Made by a program: the position numbers and the translations under genes. A stretch of 37,230 bases of DNA from a virus, in the IMG/VR virus record IMGVR_UViG_3300023184_000296, positions 1 through 37,230 of that record; one strand, given 5' to 3'. This document shows, piece after piece, positions 2,429-35,862 of this stretch. Every line of letters begins with the position of its first letter. The stretch's first letter is position 1. The notes below the pieces were generated by a model, which did no database searches, was not told the DNA's origin, and saw nothing but the letters and a program-made list of their open reading frames with translations.

Positions 2429-2500
2429 GCTGGCGCATAGCACCTGGTTTGACCAACGCTCCTTAACTTTGTATTTCCAGAACTCCCTGCGCCAGCACCA
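2429..2500 (+). ncRNA. 72-nt hairpin-closed element ending in ACCA (tRNA-like, uncertain)
   Basis: Perfect 9-base arms GCTGGCGCA (2429-2437) and TGCGCCAGC (2488-2496) close a tRNA-sized element, and the 3' arm is followed directly by ACCA. An internal hairpin TGGT-TTG-ACCA lies at 2445-2455. No T-arm or clear anticodon stem can be drawn, so it is not a standard tRNA. It sits four bases upstream of the initiator-like tRNA. It may be a decayed tRNA, a tRNA mimic, or a processing structure for the adjacent tRNA. Confidence 0.3.
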
Positions 2501-2504
2501 ACAT

Positions 2505-2579
2505 TGCGGGGTGGAGAAGAAGTATCTCGTTGGGCCCATAACCCAAAGATCGCTGGTGCGAATCCAGCCCCCGCTACCA
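2505..2579 (+). tRNA. tRNA-Met (CAT), initiator-type, with encoded CCA
   Basis: All stems pair. The acceptor TGCGGGG/CCCCGCT has only the 1-72 pair mismatched (T-T). The D-stem is GAGA/TCTC, the anticodon stem TTGGG/CCCAA has loop CCCATAA (anticodon CAT at 2537-2539), and the T-stem is GCTGG/CCAGC; A73 and CCA follow. A mismatched 1-72 pair, an A11-T24 pair and three G-C pairs next to the anticodon loop are the known hallmarks of bacterial initiator tRNA. Odd features are C instead of U at 33, a 7-base D-loop without GG, and G instead of U at 55. Those changes could mean decay or a special use. Confidence 0.8.
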
Positions 2580-2597
2580 TCCATTACACTCGCGCAC

Positions 2598-3047
2598 ATG
2601 ACATTCCACAGTCTTCCATTTGAGCCGCGCAAAATCGTTGCGACCGAAGCGCGGTTGAACAAAATCTACGACGCCGCCAAGCTGGGCTTGAAGGGCGACG
2701 CATTGGCGTTGGCTTCCGGCATGTTGCCGACCGAGTACCGGCAACTGTGCGAGCTAGACCCCATCGCAGACCTGGCGGCGCAAAAAGGCAAAGCCGACGG
2801 CGAACTGGAAATGTCCACCTGTCTGCACAAGGCAGCCAAGGAAGGCGACGCTAAGGCGGCGCTAGCGATCCTGCAACACTCCCACGGTTGGGTGGCCAAG
2901 CAATCCATCAGCATAGATGTCGATCAGCGCATCAGCATCATCGGCGCATTGCGCCAAGCAGAGTCACGGGTTGTTGATGTGATCGCCCACGAACCGAGTC
3001 CTACGTTACAACCGAAGCTAAATGCAGAACACCATATACAGCGCTGA
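2598..3047 (+). CDS. terS: Putative terminase small subunit (149 aa)
   Basis: Small terminases recognise phage DNA and load the large subunit. This protein sits directly upstream of, and overlaps by 26 bases, the large terminase gene. It is mostly helical and charged. Residues about 14-50 (EARLNKIYDAAKLGLKGDAL, then a PTEYRQL segment) look like an HTH-type DNA-binding start, and the middle (ADLAAQKGKADGEL) like an oligomerising helix. The ATG at 2598 is chosen because the open frame upstream to 2316 runs through the tRNA gene. The Shine-Dalgarno is weak. Identity rests on position, size and fold guess. Confidence 0.7.
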   Translation: MTFHSLPFEPRKIVATEARLNKIYDAAKLGLKGDALALASGMLPTEYRQLCELDPIADLAAQKGKADGELEMSTCLHKAAKEGDAKAALAILQHSHGWVAKQSISIDVDQRISIIGALRQAESRVVDVIAHEPSPTLQPKLNAEHHIQR

Positions 3048-4545
3048 AGACGAACAAGAGTTGATGGCCAGGCTTTGGAGTCCGGCGATCAAGGACAACC
3101 CGCTGGCGTTTGTAATGTTTGCGTTTCCCTGGGGCGTTAAAGGTACGCCGCTGGAAAACTTCAGCGGCCCGCGCCGTTGGCAGCGCGAGGTGTTGCTGGA
3201 CATCGCGGAGCACATCCGGCTCAACCAAAGCAAGCTGGACTTTGACGTGCTGCAAGAAGCAATATCGTCTGGCCGTGGTATTGGTAAGTCAGCTTTGGTC
3301 AGTTGGGTCACCATCTGGATGCTGGCCACAAGGATTGGCTCGACAACCATCATCTCGGCCAACAGTGAGTCCCAGCTCCGCAGTATCACATGGGCCGAGA
3401 TCACCAAGTGGCTGGCAATGTCGATCAACAGCCACTGGTTTGAGGTGTCAGCCACCCGAGTGATGCCCGCCAAGTGGCTGACTGAGTTGGTTGAGCGCGA
3501 TTTGAAGAAGGGCACACGCTACTGGGGCGTTGAAGGGCGGCTGTGGTCAGCCGAAAACCCCGACGCTTACGCTGGTGTGCACAACTTTGACGGTGTTTTG
3601 GTGATTTTTGACGAGGCAAGCGGCATAGACGACTCAATTTGGGCCGTTACTGGCGGTTTTTTCACAGAAAACACGCCAAATCGCTTCTGGCTGGCGTTTT
3701 CTAACCCGCGCCGCAACACTGGGTACTTCTACGAAGCGTTCAACAGCAAACGCGAGTTCTGGAAAAGCCGCGTGGTGGACGCTAGGACGGTCGAAGGCAC
3801 CGACAAACAGGTCTACGAGCGAATAATTGCGGAATATGGGCCAGAGTCGGCGCAAGCGCACGTCGAGGTGTACGGCATGTTCCCCAACGCGGGCGATGAC
3901 CAGTTCATTGGGGCTGACATTGTGGACGACGCGATGAAGCGGACAAAATACCAAGATCAATCCGCGCCAATAGTGATCGGGGTCGATCCGGCGCGGTTTG
4001 GAGCGGATGCGACCGTCATTGCGGTGCGCCAAGGGCGCGACATTGTGAAGATCATGCGCCACAGGGGCGACGATACCATGACGGTGGTCGGGCACGTGAT
4101 CGAAGCGATTGAAGAATTCAAACCAACGCTGGTGGTGATCGACGAAGGCGGCCTGGGCGCGGGCATCGTGGATCGGCTCAAGGAGCAGCGGTACAAGATC
4201 AAGGGCGTGAACTTCGGAAATAAGGCGAAGAACCCGATCATGTATGGCAACATGCGCGCGCAGATGTGGGGCGACATGCGCGATTGGCTCAAGACGGCGA
4301 GCATTCCAAACGACAGGTTCTTGAAGACGGACTTGATTTCGCCTATGATGAAGCCTGACTCAAGAGGCACGATATTCTTGGAGTCGAAGAAGGACATGAA
4401 GTCGCGGGGGCTGGCGTCACCAGATGCCGCCGACGCGATTGCTGTTACATTTGCATTTCCTGTGGCGCATCGTGAGTACACTGAACCGACGCGCAAGGTA
4501 TACTCTGGCCAACGTGCCGTAGCAACTGGATGGATGGGAGCTTAA
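3022..4545 (+). CDS. terL: Terminase large subunit (507 aa)
   Basis: The ATP-driven DNA-packaging motor and headful or cos nuclease. The ATPase domain has Walker A S-G-R-G-I-G-K-S at residues 83-90 and Walker B VLVIFDE with D197-E198. The RNase H-like nuclease domain has VIGVDPARFGAD with D322, LVVIDEGG with D374-E375, and SPDAADA with D468/D471, the acidic triad positions expected for terminases. Length is usual for the family. It overlaps the small subunit gene by 26 bases and is followed by a small basic protein and the portal, the standard packaging order. Confidence 0.95.
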   Translation: MQNTIYSAEDEQELMARLWSPAIKDNPLAFVMFAFPWGVKGTPLENFSGPRRWQREVLLDIAEHIRLNQSKLDFDVLQEAISSGRGIGKSALVSWVTIWMLATRIGSTTIISANSESQLRSITWAEITKWLAMSINSHWFEVSATRVMPAKWLTELVERDLKKGTRYWGVEGRLWSAENPDAYAGVHNFDGVLVIFDEASGIDDSIWAVTGGFFTENTPNRFWLAFSNPRRNTGYFYEAFNSKREFWKSRVVDARTVEGTDKQVYERIIAEYGPESAQAHVEVYGMFPNAGDDQFIGADIVDDAMKRTKYQDQSAPIVIGVDPARFGADATVIAVRQGRDIVKIMRHRGDDTMTVVGHVIEAIEEFKPTLVVIDEGGLGAGIVDRLKEQRYKIKGVNFGNKAKNPIMYGNMRAQMWGDMRDWLKTASIPNDRFLKTDLISPMMKPDSRGTIFLESKKDMKSRGLASPDAADAIAVTFAFPVAHREYTEPTRKVYSGQRAVATGWMGA

Positions 4546-14765: not shown

Positions 14766-15101
14766 ATGACTGTAACCGCCAAGAATCTAGTTCCAGCCAA
14801 GACGGTCGAGGCCACGCAGACCACGCAATATATTGCCAATGGTGTGACCACGATCATTGACAAATTCACAGCCACCAATTACAGCGGTTCTGCGGCCACC
14901 ATCAGCGTCAACTTGATCACCGCCACGGGCACCGCCAGCAACGACAACTTGATTGTCAAAGCCAAATCCTTGGCCGCGTCTGAAACGTACATTTTTCCTG
15001 AGCTTGTTGGCCACATCTTGCCATCTGGCGGTTTTATTTCGACAATCGCAGGCACAGCCAGCGCCATCAACATGCGCGTCAGCGGAAGGGAAATCTCGTG
15101 A
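14766..15101 (+). CDS. Hypothetical virion-associated protein (111 aa)
   Basis: Begins MTVTAKNLVPAKTVEATQTT; beta-rich, Thr/Ala/Ser-rich with FTATNYSGSAATISVNLITA, consistent with an immunoglobulin-like or small jelly-roll surface protein. AAGG precedes the ATG and the stop overlaps the next start as GTGA. Proteins with this sequence style are common next to phage fibre genes and may be accessory parts of the fibre. No enzymatic motif. Confidence 0.6.
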   Translation: MTVTAKNLVPAKTVEATQTTQYIANGVTTIIDKFTATNYSGSAATISVNLITATGTASNDNLIVKAKSLAASETYIFPELVGHILPSGGFISTIAGTASAINMRVSGREIS

Positions 15102-30121: not shown

Positions 30122-30760
30122 ATGTCCAATTTAGTAGCGTTCTCTCAAGCTGGCTTGCCAGCAGTTTCCACACTGTCATCCGCACTGCGGGCGATCCAAT
30201 CCGATGTCGGCCCTGCCGGTACAGCTATCCTCAAAATGGATAAGACTGGCCACTGGGTCTTCGGTGCCGATCAAACCGAAGTCGAAGACGACAGCAAGTG
30301 GGCGATCAACCCTTTCTCCTTTGTCCACGGTTTCATCGCCTGGGGTGACGGTGAGGTGTTGGCCGAGAAGATGGCCAGTGTCAGCCAGCCGTTGCCCGAA
30401 CTCGACGAAGCGCCTCCGGGTGCCAAGAAGGGTTGGGAGACACAGGTCGGCCTGAGCTTGAAGTGCATCAGCGGCGAAGACAAGGGAATGGAAGCGCGTT
30501 ACACCACCACGTCAGTGGGCGGTAAAAAAGCGGTTCAGTCCATTGCAGTCGCCTTGGCCGAGCAGGTTGACAAGGATCAAACCAAGCCTGTGGCCATCGT
30601 GCGTTTGCGTAAAGACCACTATGCCCACAAGAGCTACGGCAAGATTTATACGCCTGTGTTTGAGGTGGTCGAGTGGGTCAGCATGGACGGTGAGCCTGAG
30701 CCTGCAAAGGTTGAGGAAGCCCCCGCTGCGCCAGCAGGTCGTCGCCGGAGGTCAGCATGA
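30122..30760 (+). CDS. Putative ssDNA-binding protein (212 aa)
   Basis: Start MSNLVAFSQAGLPAVSTLSS; the centre is beta-rich with conserved aromatic and basic residues (KWAINPFSFVHGFIAWGDGE, then GWETQVGLSLKCI and YKSYGKIYTPVFEVVEWVSM-like text). The tail is Ala/Pro-rich and basic. Proteins in this place, between DUF2800 and the polymerase, are often ssDNA-binding. The usual acidic SSB tail is absent. Stop overlaps the next start as ATGA. Confidence 0.6.
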   Translation: MSNLVAFSQAGLPAVSTLSSALRAIQSDVGPAGTAILKMDKTGHWVFGADQTEVEDDSKWAINPFSFVHGFIAWGDGEVLAEKMASVSQPLPELDEAPPGAKKGWETQVGLSLKCISGEDKGMEARYTTTSVGGKKAVQSIAVALAEQVDKDQTKPVAIVRLRKDHYAHKSYGKIYTPVFEVVEWVSMDGEPEPAKVEEAPAAPAGRRRRSA

Positions 30761-33597: not shown

Positions 33598-35862
33598 TTG
33601 GAATTCTTGGAATTTATCACAAAACTCGCCCCAACTGGCGAGACAGCACTAATTGTCCGACAAAAACCACAATTAAAAGACGGCCAGATCCAACTTCACG
33701 CCGACGGCGCAGTCAAGTGCACATGGCCAGCGTACTTGCCCACCAAGGGCACCAAGCCCAAAGAAGCGTGGTACGCCAACACCGCCAGCTTCGTCGTTGA
33801 CCGCTTCACCGATGGCCGCGTGTCAGCGTCCGCAGCCAACTGCGAGTACATCCTCGTCATGATGCTGGACGACATTGGCACCAAGTCCAAGGTGCCGCCC
33901 ATCGCCCCAACGTGGATCATGGAGACGTCGCCTGGCTCGTTCCAATGGGGCTACGCCTTCGTTGACCAGCCCACCAAGGCCGAGTTCAGCGCGGCCATCC
34001 GCGCCATCGCAGATGCTGGCTACACCGACCCAGGTGCTTGCAACCCTGTGCGCAACTTCCGGTTGCCTGGCTCGGTCAACCTGAAGCCAGACCGCAACCT
34101 GTTTGAGTCGCGTCTGGTCGAGTTTCACCCAGACCGCGAATACACACTAGGTGACATCTGCTTCGCCTTGGGTGTCACACCAGTCGAAGCCGACTCGCTG
34201 ACCCTGCGCCCGATCCGCTTGTCGGACGACGGTGCCGACGATGTCATGGCGTGGTTGTCCCAGCAGGGTCTGCTGCTCTCCCGACCCAATGGCGAGGGCT
34301 GGGCTGGCGTGATCTGCCCCAATGGTGCCGAGCATACCGACGGCAACCCCGAAGGCCGGTACATGCCCGCTAATCGCGCCTACTGTTGCCTGCACTCGCA
34401 CTGCGTAGACTTTGATTCCCGCATGTTCTTGCAATGGGTAGCCGACAATGATGGCCCCAGCCATACGCCTGGGCTTCGCGAAGAACTACTGGCGCAGGCG
34501 ATGGACTCAGCCCTGTCTAAGATCAGCCCCACGCCAGACTACCCCAACGTCGCCGCTGCTGTCGTCGCCGAGGTTGAGCGCAAAGAGTTAGGCCGCATTG
34601 AGAAGGCCGAATGGTTTGAAAGGTTTGCGTACATCCAAGTAGATGATGCGTTCTTCGACATGCAAGACCGCCGTGAGATCAGCAGGCACACTTTCAACGC
34701 CCTGTTCCGTCACATAGATTGCAAGTCAGTTCACAACAGTAAACGCCGCATTGAAGCAGGCACATCGTTCGATGAGCTACGCCAAGCCAAGGGAGCCAAG
34801 GCTCTGGTCGGTGTCACTTACGCCGCCGGTGAGTCCGTGTTGGTCGCTCGTGACGGCATGGTCTACGGCAACCGCTGGCGCGATGCGCGACCCAAGGCCG
34901 CGCCTGGTGACGTCAGCCAGTGGCTCGCGCACGTCGAGCGCATGGTACCTGAGAAGTTCGAGCGTGAACACCTGCTCAACGCGCTGGCGCATAAAGTGCA
35001 GTTCCCCACACACAAGATCAACCATGCCATCCTGATGGGCGGCAACCACGGGTCGGGCAAGGACACCCTCTTTGCGCCGTTCTTTTGGGCGATCGGTGGA
35101 CGCGCCAAGGTGAATTGCAGCATGATCAAGAATGAAGACCTGACCTCTCAATGGGGCTACGGGCTGGAATGCGAAGTGATGGAGATCGCCGAGCTACGCC
35201 AAGCAGAGGCAAAAGACCGCCGCGCATTAGAAAACCACCTAAAGCCCATCATCGCCGCGCCGCCAGAGTACCTGATGGTCAACCGTAAGGGTTTGCACCC
35301 ATACTACGCCCTGAACCGCGTGTTCGTGGTCGCGTTCAGTAATGAGCGCGTGGCCATCAGCATCCCCAGCGAAGACCGCCGCTGGTTTGTGATCTGGGCA
35401 GAGGCATCTAAGCTACCAGAGGCTCAGGCGGTGAGCTTGTGGAACTGGTACCAGCACCGTGGCGGCTTTGAAGCCGTCGCCCATTACCTACACACCCGTG
35501 ACGTGTCAGCGTGGAACCCGTCAGCACCGCCGCCTATGACTGAGGCCAAGGCCATCATGGTCGAGCATGGCATGAGCACCGCCGAGTCGTTCTTGGTTGA
35601 CCTCATGCGCCGCCGCGCTGGCGAATTCTCGCGCGGTGTCGTTGGTGGCCCGTTCCATCCGATCTGCGACCGTTTGCAGGGTCAGGCACCTGTCGGGGTC
35701 AAGATAGTGCAGGCCGCGCTGCTCCACGCGCTGAAAGAAGCCGGATGGGTGGACATGGGTCGAATCAAGTCGCGGGACTACGACAGCAAAAAGCACGTTT
35801 TTTGCGTCCGTGAGATGGTCGATATATCGAAGTCAGACCTGCGCCGGATGGTCGAGCAATAA
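33598..35862 (+). CDS. Primase-helicase (754 aa)
   Basis: N-terminal half: primase-type domain with AANCEYILVMMLDDIG and FQWGYAFVDQPTKAEF (similar to AEP/RepB-like primase text), PVRNFRLPGSVNLKPD, and a zinc-like cluster (VICPNGAEH then AYCCLHSHCVDF). C-terminal half: SF3/D5-type helicase of the DUF5906 kind with Walker A G482-NHGSGK488-DT and a B-like EVMEIAEL, then RVFVVAFSNERVA. It primes and unwinds DNA at the fork together with the polymerase. TTG start with TGGAG seven bases upstream. Confidence 0.88.
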   Translation: MEFLEFITKLAPTGETALIVRQKPQLKDGQIQLHADGAVKCTWPAYLPTKGTKPKEAWYANTASFVVDRFTDGRVSASAANCEYILVMMLDDIGTKSKVPPIAPTWIMETSPGSFQWGYAFVDQPTKAEFSAAIRAIADAGYTDPGACNPVRNFRLPGSVNLKPDRNLFESRLVEFHPDREYTLGDICFALGVTPVEADSLTLRPIRLSDDGADDVMAWLSQQGLLLSRPNGEGWAGVICPNGAEHTDGNPEGRYMPANRAYCCLHSHCVDFDSRMFLQWVADNDGPSHTPGLREELLAQAMDSALSKISPTPDYPNVAAAVVAEVERKELGRIEKAEWFERFAYIQVDDAFFDMQDRREISRHTFNALFRHIDCKSVHNSKRRIEAGTSFDELRQAKGAKALVGVTYAAGESVLVARDGMVYGNRWRDARPKAAPGDVSQWLAHVERMVPEKFEREHLLNALAHKVQFPTHKINHAILMGGNHGSGKDTLFAPFFWAIGGRAKVNCSMIKNEDLTSQWGYGLECEVMEIAELRQAEAKDRRALENHLKPIIAAPPEYLMVNRKGLHPYYALNRVFVVAFSNERVAISIPSEDRRWFVIWAEASKLPEAQAVSLWNWYQHRGGFEAVAHYLHTRDVSAWNPSAPPPMTEAKAIMVEHGMSTAESFLVDLMRRRAGEFSRGVVGGPFHPICDRLQGQAPVGVKIVQAALLHALKEAGWVDMGRIKSRDYDSKKHVFCVREMVDISKSDLRRMVEQ

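Follow-up and report, generated by a model that had tools for sequence, protein, structure and literature searches.

Using a 37,230-nucleotide freshwater phage sequence (IMG/VR record IMGVR_UViG_3300023184_000296; the whole of this stretch is hereafter the window), we examined a tRNA gene that heads a P22-like late block of terL, portal, scaffold and capsid genes (Table 1). Among annotated records that state a host, the nearest is that of Phage DSL-LC05 (Dishui Lake), whose host is given only as Gammaproteobacteria, and our search with terL identified one Burkholderiales genome with a close match (G275, 71%), in which the 4.4 kb of the terL locus contain no tRNA. Our scan for promoters and terminators around the tRNA returned nothing better than chance. 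A remnant of a prophage attachment site was ruled out, as the tRNA is whole and lies inside the phage, and no integrase is present among the ORFs scanned, a set that excluded many small ORFs. The intergenic region 5′ of the tRNA contains a direct repeat, TCAAATGACCCACATGTCCACA, at 2001-2022, 2124-2145 and 2388-2409 of the window, with two copies exact and one at 68%. Elsewhere in the window, positions 30122-30760 encode a protein with a match to a PHROG nucleotidyltransferase (1e-15) and no Pfam match.

Table 1. Position of the tRNA, its loops and the adjoining genes and features in the window
Feature	Position	Strand	Basis
Conserved stretch upstream of the tRNA, ...ctccctgcgcYagcaccaacat	2460..2504	+	Comparison with relatives
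Initiator-type tRNA-Met(CAU), encoded CCA; C33, A18-G19, G55-C56	2505..2579	+	ARAGORN, Rfam, fold, conservation in 7 related contigs
D-loop AGAAGTA = A14 G15 A16 A18 G19 U20 A21	2518..2524	+	Numbering counted back from the loop's 3′ end
Anticodon loop CCCATAA = C32 C33 C34 A35 U36 A37 A38	2535..2541	+	tRNA parse
T-loop TGCGAAT = U54 G55 C56 G57 A58, matching the UGNRA consensus	2557..2563	+	tRNA parse
Leader, 18 nt, from the CCA end of the tRNA to the terS ATG	2580..2597	+	Coordinates, relatives
Gene between tRNA and terL, terS by position	2598..3047	+	Same position as the annotated terS in relative DSL-LC05
terL, first late head gene	3022..4545	+	PHROG phrog_2, 8e-38; tblastn to annotated terminases
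Late head genes after terL	portal 4684, scaffold 7593, capsid 8405		

ARAGORN identified a single tRNA in the window, a tRNA-Met(cat) on the plus strand at 2505-2579, in agreement with the first-pass annotation of this DNA; the Rfam tRNA model (RF00005) matches the same interval with 54.4 bits (E 3.7e-9), and the cloverleaf is the minimum-energy fold of this RNA (z -2.24). The tRNA parses as UGCGGGG UG GAGA AGAAGUA UCUC G UUGGG CCCAUAA CCCAA AGAUC GCUGG UGCGAAU CCAGC CCCCGCU A CCA. Examination of this parse confirmed the cloverleaf, the encoded CCA and the marks of a bacterial initiator that had been proposed earlier, i.e., a CAU anticodon within a 7-nt loop, an unpaired 1-72 position (a U1.U72 mismatch, a feature with a role in formylation; PMC9976931), an R11-Y24 pair (A11-U24), and GGG/CCC adjoining the anticodon loop (G29G30G31/C39C40C41). 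The window tRNA is like bacterial tRNA-fMet in all of these features and in overall length, but it has a short 7-nt D-loop, and residues general to tRNAs are replaced, with C33 in place of U33, A18 in place of G18 within G18G19, and G55 in place of U55. The changes at 33 and 55 had been noted before, and both are read in the parse; the reported absence of the D-loop GG holds for one base only, since the D-loop counted from A21 reads A18-G19, so that G18 is altered, and G19 and its partner C56 remain. Since the same tRNA is present at the same place in seven other contigs, a chance origin is excluded, and positions 2505-2579 are a real tRNA with the full set of bacterial-initiator sequence marks.

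Comparison of this region with close relatives, which are IMG/VR contigs, demonstrated that the tRNA copies in the seven related contigs differ by 0-1 changes per 75 nt, and the sole variation falls at base 47, in the window copy. Contigs L095 and L098 show no difference in the flanks compared, and the terS genes of L085 and L097 are 99.6% alike; in the remaining, non-duplicate pairs, the adjoining terS DNA is ~9-16% different and the 300 bases upstream differ by up to 29%. With sites free to vary, a pair at 10% divergence would show no change in 75 bases with a probability of only ~0.0004. An earlier suggestion, that the tRNA is a captured host gene in decay, predicts broken stems in many relatives; we saw none, as 8 of 8 copies keep every stem. 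This suggestion is also contradicted by the 0-1 tRNA changes in eight contigs whose surroundings have diverged, by the paired nature of the change at 18 and 55, and by the occurrence of this covariation in chromosomal initiators too (see below). Its support is the patchy presence of the tRNA: some relatives have none at the site, with the flanks in L005 meeting within a few bases directly after the equivalent of the conserved stretch at 2460..2504, and presence is patchy on the terL tree, where at least two changes are forced. We consider decay very improbable, and read this patchiness as frequent gain, loss or exchange of a tRNA that is dispensable. The near-identity of the copies may come in part from recent exchange by recombination. 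In L004 (4012-4095), and also in L003 and L006, the tRNA site contains an insert with inverted ends, which are GGGGATTG...CAATCCCC in L004.

We scanned IMG/VR and GTDB contigs for G55 initiators with a pattern in which all D-loop bases were left open, and the D-loop was thus free to vary in the G55 initiators collected. A second viral scan of IMG/VR, in which bases 33 and 55 were both free, matched at least 119 stretches, from which 84 unique initiator tRNAs were parsed. The covariation analysis covered 855 unique tRNAs that have U54, C56 and either U or G at base 55. Of the 84 with G55, 79 have A18G19, and of the 771 with U55, 758 have G18G19; the Fisher p for these two main classes is ~1e-99, a value that overstates the evidence since related sequences were counted apart, with kinship uncorrected. 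tRNAs of the A18/G55 type are found in unrelated phages, Patescibacteria, Bacteroidales and one Chloroflexi genome, and in isotypes Met-i, Met-e, Asp, Gly, Ile, Cys, Leu, Asn, Gln, Arg, Thr and Pro; the carriage of A18/G55 by elongator tRNAs rules it out as a trait of initiators only. The initiators with A18/G55 in Patescibacteria, Prevotella and Muribaculaceae share the A18-G19 and UGCRA elbow with the window tRNA but are chromosomal, and most have U33.

The UGNRA lonepair triloop/T-loop motif of rRNA and riboswitches has a G whose usual partner is an A from outside the loop, and the two complete a composite GNRA tetraloop (PMC2258182). Residue 18 of the standard tRNA elbow lies inserted between residues 57 and 58 (PMC4810234), the very place from which A18 would complete a fold of this kind. 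At the level of sequence and covariation, the window tRNA has both a U-G-N-R-A T-loop (U54-G55-C56-R57-A58) and a candidate outside A (A18), with the difference that here the motif would lie inside a tRNA elbow. The elbow, which the first-pass annotation had taken as lost, thus looks like a paired swap of A18/G55 for G18/U55, with G19/C56 kept, and a candidate working elbow rather than a broken one. As a covarying replacement that chromosomal initiators also have, A18/G55 lowers the status of this gene as a typical tRNA, not its status as an initiator. Our literature searches, which covered mainly open-access papers, returned no description of A18-G55 pairing in tRNA, and an earlier description is possible.

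The unusual elbow and anticodon loop could also belong to a decoy, i.e., a tRNA-like RNA without use in initiation that sequesters a nuclease or another host factor, and the S. aureus tRNAs diverted from translation to the cell wall likewise lack G18G19 (PMC4052509). In those tRNAs UU or CU replaces G18G19, where the window tRNA has A18-G19, and the T-stem pairs for EF-Tu are weak; the T-stem of the window tRNA is GCUGG/CCAGC. Against a decoy, all initiator determinants and the CCA are kept, and the elbow change is compensated. Moreover, a G55 initiator is the sole initiator-core match in three draft genomes, one of Prevotella and two of Patescibacteria. We therefore regard a decoy as improbable.

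Three further findings concern tRNAs with G55 in other genomes. In L174, a Verrucomicrobia MAG contig that may be a large phage, the 8 kb examined contain Asn, Gln, Leu, Arg and Met tRNAs with A18/G55 near an RtcB RNA ligase gene. The Pseudomonadota MAGs L162 and L200 contain another G55 initiator tRNA, which in L162 lies ~2 kb upstream of a terL gene, making L162 probably a phage contig. In L185 (Craterilacuibacter sinensis), five initiator tRNA genes are clustered, and one of them, perhaps a decaying copy, has G33 and G55 with G18G19 unchanged.

Since G55 removes the target of the pseudouridine synthase TruB, we compared Patescibacteria genomes for this enzyme. Of the 17 genomes whose initiator parsed as U55, 15 gave a TruB_N match, as did 9 of the 21 that have G55 (4 of these 9 being strong matches), with completeness and kinship uncontrolled; the genomes concerned include G005, G006, G125 and G497-G514. 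The p-values of 0.006 (any match) and 9e-5 (strong matches), with the same two factors uncontrolled, count as U55 one TruB-containing genome (G055) in which base 55 is unparsed. All four G55 Bacteroidales have TruB, and we treat its lower frequency in Patescibacteria with G55 initiators as a lead only.

Our survey of base 33 identified C33 in 8 of 84 viral initiators among the matches listed, in an IMG/VR sample where this base was unselected. Of 150 Burkholderiales genomes, 133 had a match, and the single C33 among the 150 matches listed is on a contig that also encodes portal, head-protease and tape-measure proteins; in Pseudomonadales, a C33 initiator was found in 0 of 126 genomes. C33 is therefore on no chromosomal initiator sampled in these two orders, which may not include the host of this phage. 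Among Patescibacteria initiators, 6 of the 40 matches listed have C33, and animal initiators have it naturally (PMC9023262), so C33 is compatible with initiation. Initiator-type tRNA-Met genes with C33 are also present in the cultured phages D3, BUCT566 and Donnerlittchen, of which D3 and BUCT566 share the GAGA/TCTC D-stem and GCTGG T-stem with the window tRNA, and in Donnerlittchen the gene adjoins terL. All three differ from the window tRNA in keeping G18G19 and TTC; A18/G55 is added to C33 only in the window family, L089, L096 and others.

The first-pass annotation held that phages rarely carry an initiator, which is too strong a statement given the at least 119 IMG/VR stretches with 84 unique tRNAs, and given the examples in cultured D3 and Donnerlittchen. 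We checked 10 phage initiator loci singly, and the largest downstream gene frequently belonged to the late set (terL, portal, head protease or endolysin); in 43 further loci, terminase families were the commonest, each in few loci only. These positions fit late expression of phage initiators. They also favor simple dosage, in which an extra initiator solely raises late initiation capacity, and C33 and A18/G55 reflect neutral drift with structural compensation; the use of the alternative elbow by cells is consistent with this. Drift alone, however, predicts poorly that C33 recurs in phages of several hosts and is absent from the chromosomal initiators sampled, and we judge dosage possible but less likely than not.

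The same distribution of C33, rare or absent in sampled chromosomal initiators and recurrent in phages, would be expected of a replacement initiator resistant to anticodon nucleases, in which C33, and possibly the altered elbow, blocks host tRNases triggered by infection. In van den Berg 2023, VapC toxins are described as cleaving initiator tRNA (tRNA-fMet), and phage tRNAs as carrying anticodon-loop changes that are proposed to confer resistance to such tRNases (PMC10264068). The window tRNA resembles those phage tRNAs in having a loop change beside the anticodon relative to chromosomal tRNAs; it differs in that we found no C33 initiator described there, and its own resistance is putative. 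Against resistance, the same source reports that phages of Shigella bearing VapC (VapC-LT2) avoid tRNA-fMet (PMC10264068). C33 is also present in 25 of 595 other phage tRNAs (~4%), so it may represent general relaxation and not a specific defense. VapC is reported to cut at 38-39, not at 33. A resistant replacement is in our judgment a real possibility that falls somewhat short of an even chance, and we hold equally tentatively to the single step that C33 confers resistance to nucleases cutting tRNA-fMet.

It had also been proposed that the tRNA is a specialized initiator favoring phage messages, and that the phage uses ATT, TTG and GTG starts. We found no evidence for such specialization; any CAU initiator reads AUG, GUG and UUG. 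Our check of start codons demonstrated ATG in most genes, with GTG at 15098 and TTG at 33598 each accompanied by SD-like sequences, and no convincing ATT among the genes checked; the proposal on start codons is weak, and a tRNA for special non-AUG start use is not supported.

Taken together, the sequence and its comparisons argue for a functional phage-encoded initiator tRNA of bacterial type with a compensated elbow (probability about 0.8), and its most likely role would be in phage, probably late, translation. In this functional initiator, the D-loop A18 would enter the U54-G55-C56-R57-A58 T-loop and pair with G55 in a composite, GNRA-like fold of predicted geometry, with G19-C56 stacking on A18-G55, and this alternative contact would mean that no pseudouridine is needed at 55. 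Its transcription would accompany or shortly precede that of the late genes; RNase P would process the tRNA, the host MetRS would charge it, and after formylation it would serve in the P site, either together with the host initiator or in its place. C33, acquired repeatedly by phages, might in addition make the tRNA a poor substrate for host tRNases of the VapC type that cut the anticodon arm of tRNA-fMet, a step of which we are less sure. More broadly, we offer as a conjecture, with odds slightly against it, that A18.G55 with a UGCRA T-loop is a second, psi55-independent class of tRNA elbow with repeated origins in phages and in bacteria whose modification systems are reduced, and that phages combine it with C33 to give initiators independent of host modification that escape tRNA cutters.

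Departures from conserved tRNA residues are often dismissed as pseudogenes (PMC9023262), and psi55 has been called universally conserved (PMC4810234); the strong covariation of A18 and G55 in both phages and cells argues against this dismissal and against universality. The A18/G55 pair provides an annotation rule for such tRNAs. Cultured phages allow these findings to be tested, using Brevundimonas phage Gurke for A18/G55, and Pseudomonas phage D3 and Janthinobacterium phage Donnerlittchen for C33, and the question of why phages carry initiator tRNAs is thereby made testable.
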